Source: Gammaproteobacteria bacterium
Lineage (GTDB): Bacteria; Pseudomonadota; Gammaproteobacteria; Steroidobacterales; Woeseiaceae
Length of the DNA stretch: 64,000 bases
Assembly: GCA_024639825.1 (NCBI GenBank)
Contig: JAHEGH010000004.1
Location: 6,229 to 70,228, forward strand
Direction: 5' to 3'
Under the pieces are notes generated by a model. That model made no database searches. It saw only the letters and a list, made by a program, of their open reading frames with translations, and was not told the DNA's origin. A program made the translations under genes and the position numbers. How positions within the stretch are numbered: the first letter of the stretch is position 1; every line of letters begins with the position of its first letter. This document shows, one piece after another, positions 18,012 to 26,049 of the stretch.

Positions 18012-19565
18012 TCAGGCCTTAACGAGTGCTTCGCGAATCTGGTCGATCTGCGGTCGAAGTTTGGGCGGTGCCTTGCCAAGGCAATGCTTGTCACGCGGAC
18101 AGTTTGAACTGCGCTGACAGATGATCGTCGCATCTTTCGATGATCCTTCTCCAATCCAGCCGATGTTGAGGATTTTGGCAATACTCTCCAGCTGCTTGCG
18201 TGCCTCTGTCGGAACCGGTGCCGTTCCGCCACCGCGGTTACAGCTGTCCTCAATCATGTCGATCGTATCGTTCGGATCGATGTTCTGGGCTTTTAGAGCC
18301 GGCGCCAGGTCCACGCCAGCGCACAGGACATGTGGGTTACCGGCGGCGTCCTTGCTGCGGATCGACTCACAGCAATAAAGTCGTTTGTCGTCGCCCGAGC
18401 GCAGCACTGATATCTGTGCCGACGGTTTGTTCGAGCGCGAGTTAAGCATGCGAAATACAGCCCAGTGCTGGCACGGATCCGAAACGAGACGCATGTTGCC
18501 CCAGGGTAGTGGGATGCCATTGCCCCGATACACGGCGCGCAGGTTGCCCGGCGGGTAAGCGTCAAAGTAATGCCAGAACGGGTAGGGTGACACGCTCGAC
18601 ATGCGGCGCATCACCAGCGTGTTGGTCAGCTCGGCCTTGTCGCCTGAGTTAATCGCGTAGGAATTTCGCGCAAGAAACTGTCGAAACGGTGTCTTTGGTG
18701 CGAGCAGGGCTGCGGCGAAATAACTGCACTCGAAGTCGCGCCACGCGTACAGAATATCCTTGGCATCGACATTCAATGAATCGGAGTCGTGCCGGCGTCC
18801 GGCAACCTGGCCACCAGATACCTGCGGCGCGCGTGCGCCGTCGCCATCATGGAGCACCTTGTGCGCTATCTGGTTGGCGAGGTCGAATTTAAGCCGCGAC
18901 GGATTGTTTTCGAGGATACGGTTCAGATAAACCTTGTTGGGTGCGTCGTAGAACGAGCGAACCAGCGTGCTCAATGGTCGATCGTCGTCGCCCTTGTCCT
19001 TGAATGCCGAGTTGTCGAACCACTGAATTTCAAGGCCCAGCTCCTTGGCGATTGCAAAAACGTCGTCAACCCGCATCGGGAAATGCTTGCGGCCGACGCG
19101 CTCGGCCGCACGTTCGATATCCGGGAAGCGGTTCTGGTTTTGTTCCTGGTGCGCGCGAATAAGCAGATGCGCGAACTGCCGCCCGGTTGTTCCCGTCTGT
19201 GCGAGAAGCTCAGGAATCGCAAGCTGCAGCAACGACTCTGAAAACAGGAAGCCGGGCTCCAGGGGCATGCCGCTGACGGCCGCGGAGGGGGCCAGGTCAA
19301 TGGCCTCTTCGTCGAGCGACTCATCGAAGAACCAATGGGTGTCCTTCTGAAAGATTTCCGCGATTATCTCGAGCAGTCGCTCTGACGGAACGCGTTTGCC
19401 GTTCTCGATCATCGACAGGTAGGACACCGAAGGACCGGCCTCCGCATCTATCTGTACGCAGCGTACCGAGAGGTCTTCAAGTGTTAAGCGATTCCGTTTC
19501 CTCAGGCTCTTTATCTTGGTGCCGAGGAAGTGGGCCTTGCGGCGGATGCCTTGATGAACAGTCAT
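18012..19565 (-). CDS. XRE-family transcriptional regulator with large effector domain (RamB/ScfR-like, DUF3612-like)
   Basis: A 517-residue protein. Residues about 15-75 form a helix-turn-helix (IKSLRKRNRLTLEDLS ... SYLSMIENGKRVPS). The long remainder fits regulators of acyl-CoA, propionate and glyoxylate metabolism (RamB, ScfR, DUF3612 proteins). The C-terminus is Cys-rich, with a C-x5-C-x5-C cluster (CQRSSNCPRDKHC), which suggests metal or redox sensing. It is divergent from malate synthase G. Three copies of TGTNAAATTN at 14-bp spacing begin 14 bases before its ATG, so it probably controls itself; the same triplet precedes isocitrate lyase. A role in glyoxylate-shunt control is a strong inference. 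Confidence 0.82.
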   Translation of the reverse strand: MTVHQGIRRKAHFLGTKIKSLRKRNRLTLEDLSVRCVQIDAEAGPSVSYLSMIENGKRVPSERLLEIIAEIFQKDTHWFFDESLDEEAIDLAPSAAVSGMPLEPGFLFSESLLQLAIPELLAQTGTTGRQFAHLLIRAHQEQNQNRFPDIERAAERVGRKHFPMRVDDVFAIAKELGLEIQWFDNSAFKDKGDDDRPLSTLVRSFYDAPNKVYLNRILENNPSRLKFDLANQIAHKVLHDGDGARAPQVSGGQVAGRRHDSDSLNVDAKDILYAWRDFECSYFAAALLAPKTPFRQFLARNSYAINSGDKAELTNTLVMRRMSSVSPYPFWHYFDAYPPGNLRAVYRGNGIPLPWGNMRLVSDPCQHWAVFRMLNSRSNKPSAQISVLRSGDDKRLYCCESIRSKDAAGNPHVLCAGVDLAPALKAQNIDPNDTIDMIEDSCNRGGGTAPVPTEARKQLESIAKILNIGWIGEGSSKDATIICQRSSNCPRDKHCLGKAPPKLRPQIDQIREALVKA

Positions 19566-19578
19566 GATTTACACCGTT

Positions 19579-19616
19579 TGTTAAATTAACTGTGTCAAAT
19601 TTCAATTGTGAAATTT
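19579..19616. promoter_or_regulatory. Three phased operator repeats before the XRE regulator / malate synthase
   Basis: TGTTAAATTA (19579), TGTCAAATTT (19593) and TGTGAAATTT (19607) are direct repeats with exact 14-bp spacing. They end about 98 bases before the malate synthase start and begin 14 bases before the regulator start. The same arrangement occurs at 24338-24375 before isocitrate lyase. Likely binding site of the adjacent XRE regulator. Confidence 0.65.
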
Positions 19617-19655
19617 AGCATGCATGGCGGTAGTATAGCCAATTGGCCCACGCGG

Positions 19656-19685
19656 TTGACAGAGGTTCACCTTAAAGGCGGTAAT
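19656..19685 (+). promoter_or_regulatory. Possible promoter of malate synthase G
   Basis: TTGACA (19656-19661) is followed after 18 bases by GGTAAT (19680-19685), four of six matches to a -10 box. It lies 29 bases before the malate synthase ATG and 40 bases after the operator repeats. Confidence 0.35.
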
Positions 19686-19714
19686 GCGCATGCAGTCCTC
19701 CACGGTTCAAGATC

Positions 19715-21907
19715 ATGAGTAGTGAAGAAAGCAGAAACACCTGCACGCTGACGATTTCCCCGATATTCGGGCAGTTCATTGATGATGAACTCCTGCCGGC
19801 CATCGGCATCGGGCCGGACACGTTCTGGCCTCGGCTCGAAGCAATCATTGATGACCTGAGTCCGCTGAATCGAACGCTGCTCGACAAGCGCCAGGAGATT
19901 CAAAAGAGCATTGATGCCTGGCACATAGCCAGGCGTGGAGATGCCTGGAGTCATTCCGAGTATCTGGATTTCCTGAAGGAAATCGGCTATCTCGTCCCCG
20001 AGGGCGAGCCATTCTCTGTCGAAACCGAGAATGTCGACAAGGAAATCGCCGAGGTGGCAGGTCCGCAACTTGTCGTCCCGGTGTCGAACCCACGGTTTGC
20101 GATTAATGCAGCCAACGCACGCTGGGGAAGTTTGTACGACGCGCTGTACGGTACAGACGCAATTAGCGACGATAACGGGCAGGAACGCTCGGACTCGTAT
20201 AATCCCGCGCGCGGCGCAGCGGTTATTCGTGTCGCAACGGAGTTTCTTGATGCCACGCTACCCCTCGACGGCATCAGTCATGCGGATGTCAGTGCATACG
20301 GCCTGGATCGCACCGATGACGGTGATGTGTTTGTTGCGTCGCTGGCGCACGGTGAGGCAATCGGTCTAATCGATCCGTCCCAATACGCGGGCCACCAGGG
20401 TGACGGCGGGCGATGCCGTTACCTGTTTCGGAATAATGGTCTGCATATCGAGATGCTCATCGACCCGGCGCACCCGATTGGCAAAGACGCCACGGCGAAC
20501 CTCGCGGATGTCATCCTCGAGTCGGCGGTAACTACGATTCAGGACTGTGAGGACTCGGTCGCGGCCGTCGATGCTGAAGACAAGGTGGGTGTCTATCGCA
20601 ACTGGCTGGGGTTGATGCAGGCAGACCTCGAGGCGACCTTCGACAAGGGCGGCAAGAAAATGACGCGTTCGCTCAAACAGGATCGTGTCTATGTTGACCC
20701 ACATGGCGAGACCTTAGCCCTAAGCGGCCGCAGCCTGATGCTCGTCCGCAACGTCGGTCACCTGATGACGACCGATGCAGTGCTGGATAGCGAAGGCAAC
20801 CAGGTCTTTGAAGGTATTCTGGACGCGGTGGTCACCACAGCATGTGCGATGACGGATCGTCGTCGCGATGGTATGCAGCCTAACAGCCGTACTGGCAGTA
20901 TTTACATTGTTAAACCGAAAATGCATGGCCCGCATGAAGTCGCCTTCACCGACATACTGTTCGGTCGCGTCGAAGAACTCTTTCGGCTGGAACCCAATAC
21001 GCTTAAGGTCGGCGTAATGGATGAAGAGCGACGCACAACCGTCAATCTCGCGGAATGCATTCGCGCTGTGCGTAAACGAATCGTATTCATCAACACGGGT
21101 TTCCTCGACCGGACGGGCGACGAGATCTTTACAAGTACGCAGGCTGGCACGGTGTTTCGAAAAGATACCATTAAGAACCAGCCGTGGATTCTTGCGTATG
21201 AGAATCGCAATGTTGATGTCGGCATCGCCTGTGGCCTGCCTGGCCGGGGACAGATCGGCAAAGGAATGTGGGCGATGCCGGACGAGATGCGGGGAATGCT
21301 GGATACCAAGCAGGCGCATCCGGAGGCGGGTGCGAACTGTGCCTGGGTGCCGTCACCCACGGCCGCGACGCTACATGCGACGCACTATCATGCGGTTGAT
21401 GTACGTGCTCGCCAGAAAGAGCTCGCGAAGCGCGCGATGGCCAGTCTCGATGACATCCTGACGCCGCCACTGGCCGATCTCAGTGACCTGACGGCGGAGG
21501 AAATTCAGGCCGAGCTCGACAATAACGCACAGGGAATCCTGGGCTACGTGGTGCGCTGGATCGATCAGGGCGTCGGTTGTTCGAAAGTACCCGATATCAA
21601 CGATGTGGGTCTCATGGAAGATCGTGCCACGCTGCGTATCTCCAGCCAGCATATGGCGAACTGGTTACTGCATGGCGTGGTCACAAAAGAGCATGTTCTG
21701 GAGACTTTTATGCGCATGGCGAAAGTCGTCGACAGGCAGAATGAGGGTGATGCATCATACGGGCGTATGAGTGACGACTATGCCACAAGCATCGCTTTCC
21801 AGGCCGCGTGCGCATTGGTGTTCGAGGGGTGCGACCAGCCCAGCGGTTATACCGAACCCTTGCTGCACCAGTATCGGCGGCAAAAGAAAGCTGAGCTTGC
21901 GGATTGA
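19715..21907 (+). CDS. glcB: Malate synthase G
   Basis: A 730-residue protein, the usual length of malate synthase G (E. coli GlcB 723). Recognisable blocks are the [20 protein letters not shown] stretch, the [13 protein letters not shown] stretch and the [12 protein letters not shown] segment. The enzyme condenses glyoxylate with acetyl-CoA to malate, the second step of the glyoxylate shunt, in the cytoplasm. Start ATG at 19715; the ribosome site is weak. It is divergent from the XRE regulator with a shared control region, and isocitrate lyase, the first shunt enzyme, is 2.5 kb downstream beyond modABC. Confidence 0.97.
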
Positions 21908-21919
21908 CCCAGGCCGCCC

Positions 21920-22663
21920 TTGCGCGCTCGCGCATTCATAATGAGCCTTGCACTGGTCTCCGGACCGGTGCTGGCTGCGGACACCATCACGGTCGCTGTC
22001 GCCAGTAACTTCTCAAGGCCTGCGGCCGAGCTTGCGGCGGGATTCACGACCGAAACCGGCGTTATTGTTCGCATTAGCAATGGATCGACGGGAAAACTGT
22101 ACGCACAGATCGTGAATGGCGCGCCGTTCGACGTTTTTCTCGCTGCCGATGCCGAACGCCCAAAACGGCTTCAGGAGTCCGGGTATGCTGTTGGCGAAAC
22201 CCGGTTCACGTACGCGCAAGGCGCCCTGGTGCTTTGGTCACGTGATGCAAAAGACTGTCTTGCTGCGCTGGCGGACGAAGACAGTGGGCGCGTCGCTTTG
22301 GCGAATCCGCAAACGGCTCCGTACGGCAAGGCCGCGGTCGAGTTTCTTGAGGCCGAGGGCGACTGGGAATCGATGTCCGCGCGGGCAGTGTACGGTGAAA
22401 ATGTTAACCAGACGTTGCAGTTCGTCGCGACTGGAAATGCGGTTGTCGGTTTCATAGCGAAGTCGCAACTCGGGGCGCCGCAGCTGCCTGAGCCAGGGTG
22501 TGTGTGGGAGGTGCCGGTCTCTTCATACACCAAGATTGAGCAGCAGGCAGTGCTGCTGGAGCACGCGGCGAGCAACGACAACGCGCGACGCTTTCTTATG
22601 TATCTGCGTTCCGACGATGCACGTGACATCATGAGTCGTCACGGCTACGGGGTTTTGCAGTGA
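21920..22663 (+). CDS. modA: Molybdate ABC transporter, periplasmic binding protein
   Basis: A 247-residue protein with a signal peptide (cleavage near VLAAD). The mature N-terminus VAVASNFSRPAAELA and the SNGSTGKLYAQI segment supply the oxyanion-binding loops of ModA. PFDVFLAAD and GYAVGETRFTYAQGALVLWS are typical of the family. It delivers molybdate (or tungstate) to ModBC. The start is TTG at 21920, 12 bases after the malate synthase stop; no better start precedes the signal peptide. It is the first gene of a modABC operon whose members overlap by four bases. Confidence 0.92.
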   Translation: MRARAFIMSLALVSGPVLAADTITVAVASNFSRPAAELAAGFTTETGVIVRISNGSTGKLYAQIVNGAPFDVFLAADAERPKRLQESGYAVGETRFTYAQGALVLWSRDAKDCLAALADEDSGRVALANPQTAPYGKAAVEFLEAEGDWESMSARAVYGENVNQTLQFVATGNAVVGFIAKSQLGAPQLPEPGCVWEVPVSSYTKIEQQAVLLEHAASNDNARRFLMYLRSDDARDIMSRHGYGVLQ

Positions 22664-23325
22664 GCGCTTTCCAGCCAATGTGGTTGTCGCTTCAGCTTGC
22701 GACGTTTACGACGGCGATCCTGATCCTGATCGGAACCCCCATTGCGTGGTGGTTGTCCCAGACAAGAGTGCGATGGAAACCGGCGGTACAGGCTGTTGTC
22801 GCGATGCCGATCGTGTTACCGCCAACCGTGCTCGGCTTCTATTTGCTCATACTTCTCGGTCCGGACGGCGCAATTGGCAGCTGGTGGGTGCAGCTGACCG
22901 GAAATGCATTGACGTTCTCATTCACCGGGCTCGTTATTGCGTCTTGTGTCTATAGCCTGCCATTCGCTGTGCAGCCAATACAGAACGCATTCGAATCACT
23001 TCCGCGACAGTACATGGAGCGCGCTCGGACACTCGGCGCGTCGCGCCTCGACGCGTTCTTCTCCGTCGTGGTGCCATTGTCGGTGCGTGGTTTTGTCAGC
23101 GGGATCGTGCTGAGCTTTGCGCATACGCTCGGAGAGTTTGGTGTCGTGCTCATGGTCGGCGGCAATATCCCGGGCGAGACTCGGGTTGTTTCGATCGCGA
23201 TCTACGATCATGTCGAGTCACTCAACTACGCGGCGGCACATCGCATGTCCGTGGTTCTGATCGGTTTCGCGTTCGTCGTCCTGGCAACAATGTTCGTGTT
23301 GAACCGTCGCTGGGGTGATCGATGA
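22660..23325 (+). CDS. modB: Molybdate ABC transporter permease
   Basis: A 221-residue membrane protein with about five transmembrane segments and the EAA loop (YMERARTLGASRLDAFFSVVVPLS) that docks on the ATPase. ModB forms the molybdate channel in the inner membrane. Its GTG start overlaps the modA stop (GTGA), a sign of translational coupling. The modC start overlaps its own stop in the same way. Confidence 0.93.
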   Translation: MSAFQPMWLSLQLATFTTAILILIGTPIAWWLSQTRVRWKPAVQAVVAMPIVLPPTVLGFYLLILLGPDGAIGSWWVQLTGNALTFSFTGLVIASCVYSLPFAVQPIQNAFESLPRQYMERARTLGASRLDAFFSVVVPLSVRGFVSGIVLSFAHTLGEFGVVLMVGGNIPGETRVVSIAIYDHVESLNYAAAHRMSVVLIGFAFVVLATMFVLNRRWGDR

Positions 23326-24326
23326 TCCATCTCCGGCACAAGCTAATGAGGGAAAGCTTCGAGCTCGATGTCGACGTTGAGGTGCCCAATACCGGAATAA
23401 CCGGCGTCTTCGGTGAGTCAGGATCCGGGAAGACAACGCTCTTGAGGTGCATCGCCGGATTGGAGCAGGAAGATGGTCTTCCCGTTCACAAGCGAAACGT
23501 GGGCTATGTTTTCCAGGACCCCACGCTGTTTCCCCACCTGACCGTGCGCGGCAACATCGAGTATGGCGCGCGACGTGCTACCACCCACAGGGTGGATAGT
23601 GCGCCTGTCGTGGACATGCTAGGCATTGGCAGCCTGCTGGATCGCAGGCCGGATTCTCTGTCCGGGGGCGAAGCACAGCGAGTCGCGATTGCCGCGGCTC
23701 TGCTGCGCTCTCCGGATATTGTGCTGATGGATGAGCCGCTGGCCTCGCTCGATCGCCGCCGTAAAGACGAGTTACTGCCGTACTTCGATCGCCTGCATGA
23801 CGAGCTGGCCGTGCCCGTTATCTACGTTAGTCACGATATCGATGAGATCAGCCGACTCTGTGATCACCTGATTCTTCTCGAAGACGGCAAGGTTTCGGCC
23901 TGCGGTGATCTGTTTGATGTGGTCTCGCGCGTCGACGTGCCGATGTTGTCCGGACAGAATGCGGGTGTGGTGCTTTGGGCGACGCCTGTTAGTCACGAGG
24001 ACGGGCTGACGAGGTTCGACTTCGGAGATGGTGAGATTTGGGCGCCTGGTGAGTTTGCGGTGGGGCGGAAGCCAATGCGTCTTCGCGTAGCGGCAAGCGA
24101 CGTGAGTATCGCTCGCGAGCGACCGGCGCAGACAACGATACAGAACGTAATTCGAGCAACGATTGAGGCGGTGCATGGTGTTAATGCTGCGACGGCGCTC
24201 GTTCGCCTTGGCATTGGCAATCAGGACCTGCTTGCACAGGTGACCAACCGATCGGTCCGACGCCTCGGTCTGGTGCCCGGGGACCGCGTGTTCGCCCAGG
24301 TCAAGTCGGTGACCGTCCGCCATTAG
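23322..24326 (+). CDS. modC: Molybdate ABC transporter ATP-binding protein
   Basis: A 334-residue protein. Walker A GESGSGKTT at residues 31-39, ABC signature LSGGEAQR near 113, Walker B LMDEP near 131, and a C-terminal TOBE/Mop domain (about 265-330) that binds oxyanion. It powers molybdate import by ModAB. ATG start overlaps the modB stop. The 3' end is followed after 11 bases by the operator repeats of isocitrate lyase. No modE gene is nearby. Confidence 0.94.
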   Translation: MIHLRHKLMRESFELDVDVEVPNTGITGVFGESGSGKTTLLRCIAGLEQEDGLPVHKRNVGYVFQDPTLFPHLTVRGNIEYGARRATTHRVDSAPVVDMLGIGSLLDRRPDSLSGGEAQRVAIAAALLRSPDIVLMDEPLASLDRRRKDELLPYFDRLHDELAVPVIYVSHDIDEISRLCDHLILLEDGKVSACGDLFDVVSRVDVPMLSGQNAGVVLWATPVSHEDGLTRFDFGDGEIWAPGEFAVGRKPMRLRVAASDVSIARERPAQTTIQNVIRATIEAVHGVNAATALVRLGIGNQDLLAQVTNRSVRRLGLVPGDRVFAQVKSVTVRH

Positions 24327-24337
24327 AGCCGCCGCCG

Positions 24338-24375
24338 TGTGAAATTCACATTGTCAAATTTTTTTTGTGAAATTT
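24338..24375. promoter_or_regulatory. Three phased operator repeats before isocitrate lyase
   Basis: TGTGAAATTC (24338), TGTCAAATTT (24352) and TGTGAAATTT (24366) recur at exact 14-bp intervals. The last copy continues as CGCAT, much as the copy at 19607 continues as AGCAT. They match the triplet upstream of the XRE regulator and malate synthase. They lie 79 bases before the aceA start, near where a promoter would be expected. Confidence 0.65.
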
Positions 24376-24403
24376 CGCATTTATCAGGCGTAAACTAAGC
24401 GTA

Positions 24404-24453: not shown

Positions 24454-26049
24454 ATGTCACAGTATGCCGACGACATCCAGGCGGCCGCAGGGCTGATCGC
24501 CAGCCAAGGCAATGCCTGGGATGCTATTGACCCAGAGTCCGTTGCGCGCATGAAGGCGCAGAATCGTTTCCAGAGTGGCCTGGATATCGCCAGGTATACG
24601 GCCGGGATCATGCGTAAAGACATGGCCCGCTACGATGCCGATCCATCGCAGTACACCCAGTCACTCGGTTGCTGGCATGGCTTCATCGGTCAGCAGAAGA
24701 TGATTTCGATCAAGAAGCACTTCAACAGCACCGACCGGCGGTACCTGTACCTGTCGGGCTGGATGGTCGCAGCCTTGCGCTCCGAGTTCGGCCCGCTGCC
24801 CGATCAGTCGATGCACGAGAAGACCTCGGTGCCGGCCCTGATCGAAGAGCTCTATACGTTCCTGCGCCAGGCGGATGCCCGCGAACTCGGTGGCCTGTTC
24901 CGTGAGCTCGACAAGGCCGCTGAAGAGGGAAATGCTGTCAAGGAACGCGACATCAAGAACAAGATCGACAATTTCCAGACGCACGTCGTGCCGATTATCG
25001 CGGACATCGATGCGGGCTTCGGCAACGCGGAGGCGACTTATCTGCTGGCCAAGAAGATGATTGAAGCGGGTGCCTGCGCTCTGCAGATCGAAAACCAGGT
25101 GTCCGACGAGAAACAATGTGGCCACCAGGACGGTAAGGTCACGGTGCCGCACGAAGACTTTCTCGGAAAGATCCGCGCTATCCGCTATGCGTTCCTGGAA
25201 CTCGGCGTAGACGACGGCATTATCGTGGCACGCACCGATTCGCTCGGCGCCGGCCTGACCAAGCAGATCGCGGTGACGCATGAGAAGGGTGATCTCGGGG
25301 ACCAGTACAACTCGTTCCTCGACTGCGATGAGGTTACGCCCGACGACTTAAAGAACGGCGACGTACTGATGAAGCGGGACGGCAAGTTCGTTCATCCGAA
25401 ACGCCTGCCGAGCAACTTGTTCCAGTTCCGCCCGGGTACCGGTGAAGATCGCTGCGTGCTGGACAGCATCACCTCACTGCAGAACGGTGCAGATCTTCTC
25501 TGGATCGAGACCGAGAAGCCGCATATCGGCCAGATTGGTGGCATGGTCGATCGTATCCGTGAAGTCATCCCGAACGCGAAGCTGGTCTACAACAACAGTC
25601 CGTCGTTCAACTGGACGCTGAACTTCCGCCAGCAGGTGTTCGATGCGTGGGTGGAAGAAGGCAAGGACGTCTCAGCGTACGATCGCGACCACCTGATGAG
25701 CATCGACTATGATGCCACTGAGCTATCCACCGTCGCAGACGAGAAAATTCGGACCTTCCAGGCGGACTCTGCTCGCGAAGCCGGGATTTTCCATCATCTG
25801 ATCACCCTGCCGACGTACCACACGGCCGCGTTGTCAACCGACACCCTGGCGAAAGAGTACTTCGGTGATCTCGGCATGCTGGGCTACGTTCTCCATGTGC
25901 AGCGTGAGGAGATTCGCAATGGCATCGCGTGCGTCAAGCACCAGAATATGTCGGGTTCGGATATCGGCGACGATCACAAGGAGTACTTCTCCGGAGATGC
26001 TGCCCTGAAGGCTGCTGGTGAAGACAATACGATGAATCAGTTTTCCTGA
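24454..26049 (+). CDS. aceA: Isocitrate lyase (large, Pseudomonas-type)
   Basis: A 531-residue protein, about 100 residues longer than E. coli AceA and matching the long class found in Pseudomonas. The active-site segment reads KQCGHQDGKV near residue 219, with the catalytic Cys kept; it replaces the KKCGH form of the short class. It splits isocitrate to glyoxylate and succinate, the entry to the glyoxylate shunt for growth on acetate or fatty acids. Start ATG 24454 follows a GAGGAA ribosome site. It has its own operator triplet and ends at a strong terminator, so it is a single-gene unit regulated with malate synthase. Confidence 0.96.
   Translation: MSQYADDIQAAAGLIASQGNAWDAIDPESVARMKAQNRFQSGLDIARYTAGIMRKDMARYDADPSQYTQSLGCWHGFIGQQKMISIKKHFNSTDRRYLYLSGWMVAALRSEFGPLPDQSMHEKTSVPALIEELYTFLRQADARELGGLFRELDKAAEEGNAVKERDIKNKIDNFQTHVVPIIADIDAGFGNAEATYLLAKKMIEAGACALQIENQVSDEKQCGHQDGKVTVPHEDFLGKIRAIRYAFLELGVDDGIIVARTDSLGAGLTKQIAVTHEKGDLGDQYNSFLDCDEVTPDDLKNGDVLMKRDGKFVHPKRLPSNLFQFRPGTGEDRCVLDSITSLQNGADLLWIETEKPHIGQIGGMVDRIREVIPNAKLVYNNSPSFNWTLNFRQQVFDAWVEEGKDVSAYDRDHLMSIDYDATELSTVADEKIRTFQADSAREAGIFHHLITLPTYHTAALSTDTLAKEYFGDLGMLGYVLHVQREEIRNGIACVKHQNMSGSDIGDDHKEYFSGDAALKAAGEDNTMNQFS

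Follow-up and report, generated by a model that had tools for sequence, protein, structure and literature searches.

Three-unit operator arrays mark a probable glyoxylate-shunt regulon of a DUF3612-type XRE regulator in Woeseiaceae

The DNA analyzed here is a stretch of 64,000 nucleotides from a gammaproteobacterium of the family Woeseiaceae (GenBank assembly GCA_024639825.1, contig JAHEGH010000004.1, positions 6,229 to 70,228 of the forward strand), which is called the window below. It carries the gene of an XRE-type regulator (18012..19565, minus strand, 517 amino acids), a divergent gene of malate synthase G (19715..21907, plus strand) and, further downstream, a gene of isocitrate lyase (24454..26049, plus strand). 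Two short arrays, each composed of three TGTnAAATT units on the plus strand, accompany these genes. Array 1 (19579..19615) is located between the regulator and malate synthase G genes, 13 bases from the start codon of the regulator, and its units, as read from the sequence, are TGTTAAATTA, TGTCAAATTT and TGTGAAATTT, starting at 19579, 19593 and 19607, respectively. Array 2 (24338..24374) precedes the isocitrate lyase gene and consists of TGTGAAATTC, TGTCAAATTT and TGTGAAATTT at 24338, 24352 and 24366. A first-pass annotation, made from the letters of the window, had described two identical sets of three copies at exact 14-bp steps and attributed them to the neighboring regulator. Both the positions and the steps were confirmed, as the two arrays fit the search pattern (TGTNAAATT repeated three times at 14-bp steps, 24 fixed bases) with 0 mismatches. 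The sets are identical in units 2 and 3, but not in unit 1, which differs at two of its first 10 bases, nor in the linker bases.

A scan of the window with this pattern returned these two occurrences and no third site within 3 mismatches, and 100 dinucleotide shuffles of the window gave 0 matches. About 1e-9 occurrences of the exact pattern are expected by chance in 3.42 Mb, searched on both strands at the base composition of the window. The genome to which the window belongs (G000; 3.42 Mb in 163 contigs, 90.48% complete) contains three arrays within 3 mismatches, i.e., the two described above and a third one at G000:C91:31725-31761, and a relaxed search for further targets, using the first two units with 3 mismatches, led to the same three places only. 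Since the shuffles were empty, the chance expectation was minute and three arrays were present in the genome, a chance repeat was rejected. The third array lies 78 bp before a reading frame of 153 amino acids (G000:C91:31840-32301, equivalent to L008:9841-10302) that encodes a small malate-synthase-like protein, designated here SMP, our label for a stand-alone malate synthase G insertion-domain protein. Many unrelated copies in the genome, which would have spoken against the first-pass annotation, were not found; the array occurs just three times, before malate synthase G, isocitrate lyase and this malate-synthase-like gene.

The occurrence of the array was then compared with that of the regulator. 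Among 196 genomes of the order, a regulator match was found in 94 (a number that includes fragments and weak matches), the array in 86, both in 86, and the array alone in none, so that it was present in 86 of the 94 genomes with a regulator homolog versus 0 of the 102 without it. Outside the genus of the source organism, this set comprised 61 genomes with both, seven with the regulator only, none with the array only, and 99 with neither. Five of the eight regulator-only genomes of the order (G045, G170, G180, G193, G196) have an array with 4 to 5 mismatches beside the regulator, and the others contain a remnant gene (G004), a gene cut by a contig end (G048) or a weak match to the helix-turn-helix (HTH) region (G113, E = 2.7e-4). 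In a set of 60 relatives, there were 41 regulator matches and 39 arrays within 3 mismatches, with 38 genomes showing both, three the regulator only (G004, G045, G048), one the array only (G029), and 18 neither. A reversed control pattern yielded 0 matches in both sets. Furthermore, we inspected the best 80 of 553 loci from named GTDB relatives, of which L170 and L193 had to be left out because the N-terminus of the regulator was cut off; in all 78 testable loci an array with at most 2 mismatches was found no further than about 60 bp from the start of the regulator. Of 2000 stretches taken at random from these loci and scored on one strand, opposite to that of the sites, none came down to 4 mismatches. 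These 80 loci include Woeseiaceae, Granulosicoccaceae, Marinomonas and Alteromonadaceae as well as records labeled Burkholderiales, Chromatiales, Lysobacterales, Pseudomonadales and Thiotrichales. Across the class, 274 genomes were sampled; DUF3612 was detected in five of them, and four of these have the array within 2 mismatches. Two genomes of the same genus, both 1.5 Mb in size (G004 and G011; loci L254 and L255), have kept malate synthase G at 70% identity; their regulator is a remnant or undetected, and their array has degraded to 6 mismatches. In a further genome (G001), malate synthase G is kept, and neither a regulator match nor an array within 7 mismatches was found in the stretch examined.

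The regulator itself is composed of an N-terminal XRE HTH domain (HTH_3, 4.9e-9), a middle M78/IrrE-like domain (Peptidase_M78, PF06114, 2e-5) and a DUF3612 domain (PF12268, 4.9e-75). All three matches exceed their cut-offs, and DUF3612 scored 251.9 bits against a gathering score of 25. A structural model of the protein (pLDDT 77, with residues 485-503 and some further stretches below 50) was compared with solved structures using Foldseek, and the top four matches were all to MtPrpR (best E 2.3e-10; TM-score 0.61-0.62 on the target and 0.40-0.41 on the query; 17-19% identity), while IrrE (3dti) was also matched (E 2.0e-5). A profile search of PDB with 13 aligned regulators (12 relatives and the window; L086, at a contig end, and L142, with an unclear start, were omitted from the 14 candidates) produced 17 matches at E ≤ 1, which were confined to the HTH part of the query (best stretches within positions 5-97) and did not include MtPrpR, hence the link to MtPrpR depends on structure. 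PF09856, the domain of the ScfR family, had no match in G000 at E ≤ 0.001, the corresponding region of the regulator being DUF3612; the same domain did match in the Corynebacterium glutamicum control genome, in a protein that we take to be RamB. Nor was the iron-sulfur motif C-X2-C-X4-C found in the last 110 residues of any of 80 regulator reading frames, 78 of which contain C-X5-C-X5/6-C, the other two (L194, L223) being incomplete. Cysteines 365, 399, 442, 483, 489 and 495, as well as Cys36, are invariant in the 13 aligned regulators, and the last three (C-X5-C-X5-C) constitute a candidate metal or iron-sulfur site. The regulator thus shares the build of ScfR/IsaR proteins and, as it fails two of the features that define them (PF09856 and C-X2-C-X4-C), is not filed as a member; we take it for a variant class among glyoxylate regulators of the acyl-CoA type.

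The anatomy of the array was derived from 104 loci, which gave 101 distinct site windows and, below 80% identity, 90 nonredundant sites with the consensus TGTGAAATTnACAnTGTGAAATTTYTAnTGTGAAATT. G2, T3, A11, C12, G16 and T17 are present in 100% of the sites; positions 2, 3, 16 and 17 are pattern bases, while positions 11-13, like 54-59, are not, so that the conservation of A11 and C12, and of A13 in 93% of the sites, was not imposed by the search. Unit 1 forms a conserved 13-bp palindrome, TGTnAA-A-TTnACA, and its junction with unit 2 makes up an inverted repeat, TTnACA-n-TGTnAA. For unit 1, the right arm TTnACA was found in 83 of the 90 sites, for unit 2 in none and for unit 3 in seven. Accordingly, dyad complementarity amounts to 0.84 at both array positions 7 and 14, and to 0.47 and 0.45 around the centers of units 2 and 3 (positions 21 and 35). 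By sequence, the layout of half-sites is F1-R1-F2 followed by a third direct half-site, F3. The first-pass view of three direct copies therefore holds for the common direction of the three units, but it left out the palindrome of unit 1 and the inverted repeat shared by units 1 and 2.

The distance to a putative promoter is also fixed. A -10-like element, TAnnnT, begins at array position 53-55 in 88 of the 90 sites, against a background of no more than 2 of the 90 in windows that are three positions wide and start at positions 60-77, and this fixed distance, taken together with the usual promoter spacing, indicates that unit 3 covers the -35 region. The most common form of unit 3 at the -35 offset, GTGAAA, matches four of the six bases of TTGACA and occurs in 48 sites, and at least 4 of 6 bases are matched in 49. 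For malate synthase G, the predicted elements are GTGAAA (19608..19613, plus strand, 4/6 to TTGACA), located inside unit 3, and TAGTAT (19631..19636, plus strand, array position 53); for isocitrate lyase, they are GTGAAA (24367..24372, plus strand), likewise inside unit 3, and TAAACT (24391..24396, plus strand, array position 54).

Both genes of the window were identified by family profiles, with malate synthase G scoring 1049.7 bits (NCBIfam TIGR01345) and the 531-residue isocitrate lyase of the PRK06498 type scoring 1062.8 bits (NCBIfam NF005074), each over its cut-off, and both are predicted targets. To see which genes follow the arrays elsewhere, we surveyed the surroundings of 66 distinct arrays with flanks, looking only for isocitrate lyase, malate synthase G, SMP and the regulator. 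The arrays comprised 56 of the 58 from the 60 relatives (those of G025 and G026 were not included) and 10 from the order set, picked for the most part where a genome had two or more arrays; L118 and L250 represent one place and were counted once. The first recognized gene within 500 bp downstream was isocitrate lyase, malate synthase G or SMP in 63 of 66 cases, and two of the remaining three arrays adjoin the regulator, with isocitrate lyase further on. Among 20 further order-level stretches, 18 have isocitrate lyase beside the regulator, in some cases about 1.5-2 kb off, and no isocitrate lyase was found in the stretches L127 and L134. In genomes in which the genes are dispersed (G000, G010, G018, G030, G036, G211), a separate array accompanies each of the three genes of malate synthase G, isocitrate lyase and SMP. 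Two types of isocitrate lyase, of 531 amino acids (window 24454-26049) and 426 amino acids (L091:5228-6508), stand behind the same operator in different relatives; the identity between the 531- and ~426-residue types is about 29%.

The only part of malate synthase G that SMP matched is the alpha-beta insertion domain (PF20658, 3.6e-10, over the cut-off); a match to NCBIfam PRK08951 (2.8e-11) stayed below the cut-off. The best Foldseek matches of its model (pLDDT 75.7) were solved malate synthases G, with E values from 7.7e-7. As it has no malate synthase barrel, SMP presumably cannot be a malate synthase alone, and it may modulate the enzymes of the shunt. Within the set of 60 relatives, matches to a free-standing SMP came from the genus of the source organism only, and those from other families are parts of full malate synthase G frames. 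A second alignment drew on 28 frames, omitting L239, a near copy of L112, and the fragments L252 and L110. In the relatives L094, L114, L237, L252 and L253, SMP sits between the operator, isocitrate lyase and malate synthase G. Its presence among the targets is the most unexpected part of the regulon.

Directly after malate synthase G, the window carries modA-modB-modC (21920..24326, plus strand), which encode an ABC transporter of the molybdate type and are possibly on the same transcript as malate synthase G. By hand count, 25 of the 27 loci with malate synthase G have a modA homolog next to it; the exceptions are L106 and L114, and in L114 no more than 1.2 kb of sequence past malate synthase G was available. 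A transporter of this type appears to be tied to the glyoxylate operon.

Several known regulators may be compared with the DUF3612 protein. RamB of Corynebacterium glutamicum (class 1), a regulator of acetate metabolism as named in a paper title, reportedly binds a motif that differs from the TGTnAAATT array. RamB of Paracoccus denitrificans (Pden_1365; class 2, ScfR family) is reported to act as an activator on acetate and as a repressor on succinate, to dissociate from a tetramer to dimers with CoA esters, and to be served by a pair of almost identical boxes separated by an 18-bp spacer, an arrangement described as common among ScfR sites, the motif being placed 82 bp upstream of ms (PMC10370305). 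By that description, it resembles the DUF3612 regulator in a gene divergent from malate synthase/isocitrate lyase and in a multi-box intergenic site; the two spaced boxes contrast with the three contiguous 14-bp units overlapping the -35 region found here. MtPrpR of Mycobacterium tuberculosis (IsaR/ScfR family; PDB 6CZ6/6CYY/6CYJ) is described as a CoA-binding tetramer with a [4Fe4S] cluster and a proposed operator TTTGCAAA-n-TTTGCgAA, i.e., two palindromes 1 bp apart (PMC6765138). With the DUF3612 regulator it has in common the HTH, M78-like and GAF-like build and a C-terminal cysteine triad, which is C-X2-C-X4-C in MtPrpR and C-X5-C-X5/6-C here. The operators differ as well, since the boxes of MtPrpR and MtRamB are of the TTTGCAAA type and our consensus contains no such boxes. 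The first-pass statement that operators of related regulators are mostly single or inverted disagrees with what these sources report for Paracoccus RamB (two boxes, 18-bp spacer; PMC10370305) and MtPrpR (two palindromes; PMC6765138).

Judging from these comparisons of sequences, the arrays very probably serve as the operator and promoter module in a small regulon of the glyoxylate shunt under the adjacent DUF3612-type XRE regulator. The comparative support for the pairing of array and regulator is strong, and the first-pass attribution to this regulator is in line with both the 86/94 versus 0/102 distribution and the 78 loci. Several points weigh against this assignment. The co-occurrence counts ignore shared descent, and the best 80 of the 553 loci overlap the 60-relative and 196-genome sets. 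G029 (84% complete) has an array before SMP and no regulator match, nor a full malate synthase G match, although an assembly gap is a possible reason for the absence of the regulator. In the class-wide sample, one genome (G045 there) has DUF3612 and no array within 3 mismatches, and four genomes without a DUF3612 match have a 3-mismatch array match; such matches are, however, near background, because the reversed control gave four matches in three genomes of this sample. The last of the 66 arrays with flanks, an array-like match at G153:C284 with 2 mismatches, lacks a target gene alongside. The logo sites were picked with the pattern, so conservation at its 24 fixed bases is partly built in. 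Finally, a generic scan for promoters detected nothing resembling a sigma-70 site at either of the two arrays, and for this reason the promoter assignment depends on the aligned -10-like element.

We also considered explanations in which the array acts through something other than this regulator. The array might be bound by another factor, e.g., one of the CRP/FNR type recognizing TGTGA, with the regulator merely sharing the regulon, which we regard as improbable. The CRP operator is TGTGA-N6-TCACA and its half-site, TGTGA, recurs in the array; the occurrence of an array in G029 in the company of no detected regulator would fit as well. However, the spacing in the array is TGTnA-N3-TnACA, and a CRP-type site was rejected since the half-sites are 3 bp apart instead of N6. 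Furthermore, no array-only case was met among the 196 genomes, and the array is degraded in the two genomes that lack an intact regulator yet retain malate synthase G. A UP element or intrinsically bent AT-rich DNA, stimulating the promoter in the absence of a specific regulator, is more improbable still: it would account for AT-rich repeats just upstream of the -35 region at a fixed distance to the -10-like element, but not for bases that are invariant in 90 sites, nor for array presence tracking one regulator gene, and a UP element alone was rejected on these two grounds. The 14-bp step, which would be out of phase with the helix, also speaks against it. That the array works in RNA, as a leader hairpin, seems to us extremely improbable: the short inverted repeats could pair, but folding z-scores are -1.10 at both arrays, on which basis the hairpin was rejected, and the array lies upstream of the predicted start site of its targets.

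With the DUF3612 regulator as the binding protein, the number of subunits on the DNA may be read in two ways, between which we see an even balance: two dimers, i.e., a tetramer, on F1-R1 and F2-F3, or, in the first-pass view, equal units on three direct repeats. The former would agree with the symmetry axes at positions 7 and 14 (0.84, versus 0.47/0.45 at the centers of units 2 and 3) and with the tetrameric state of the structural relative MtPrpR; against it, unit 3 has a full right arm, TTnACA, in seven of the 90 sites (e.g., L195 and L196), so that units 2 and 3 may themselves be full sites, albeit weak ones. As 14 bp correspond to about 1.33 helix turns, or about 120 degrees per step, the cooperative binding along a spiral that the first-pass annotation suggested would be possible in geometric terms.

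As the compared loci show, the 37-bp array stands at a fixed distance upstream of the -10-like element, with unit 3 on the -35 region, and the other edge of array 1 is close to the start codon of the regulator. A regulator built like the CoA-binding tetramer MtPrpR could set several HTH domains on the half-sites. Acetate or the breakdown of fatty acids would raise an acyl-CoA, upon which the regulator would switch the three target promoters from the -35 region, and, with its start codon 13 bases from the array, it might repress its own gene. The weakness of the -35 hexamer within unit 3 points to activation through a contact to RNA polymerase, yet repression by occlusion in the absence of ligand would also be conceivable, both modes being reported for RamB of Paracoccus. 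Ligand, oligomeric state and sign of regulation are all proposed by analogy with MtPrpR and Paracoccus RamB.

That acyl-CoA regulators with such a build control the glyoxylate shunt is already known. None of the open-access papers searched mentions DUF3612, and, as far as these papers show, the class formed by DUF3612, the operator assigned to it and SMP as a target are new. We tentatively offer a broader proposal, to which we give somewhat less than even credence, namely that DUF3612 proteins are a distinct group of acyl-CoA-sensing, possibly iron-sulfur, regulators of the glyoxylate cycle that would bind the asymmetric F1-R1-F2-F3 array as a tetramer wound around the -35 region, with a Woeseiaceae-type regulon including a flux-adjusting SMP. 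The present analysis proposes a regulon and a DNA code for an uncharacterized regulator family, seen, among the best 80 of 553 loci, in Woeseiaceae, Marinomonas, Alteromonadaceae, Granulosicoccaceae and records labeled Burkholderiales. One operator stands before two unlike types of isocitrate lyase, and it points to an unstudied small protein, SMP, as a part of the glyoxylate shunt. In this bacterium, the array probably switches genes for growth on acetate-like food.

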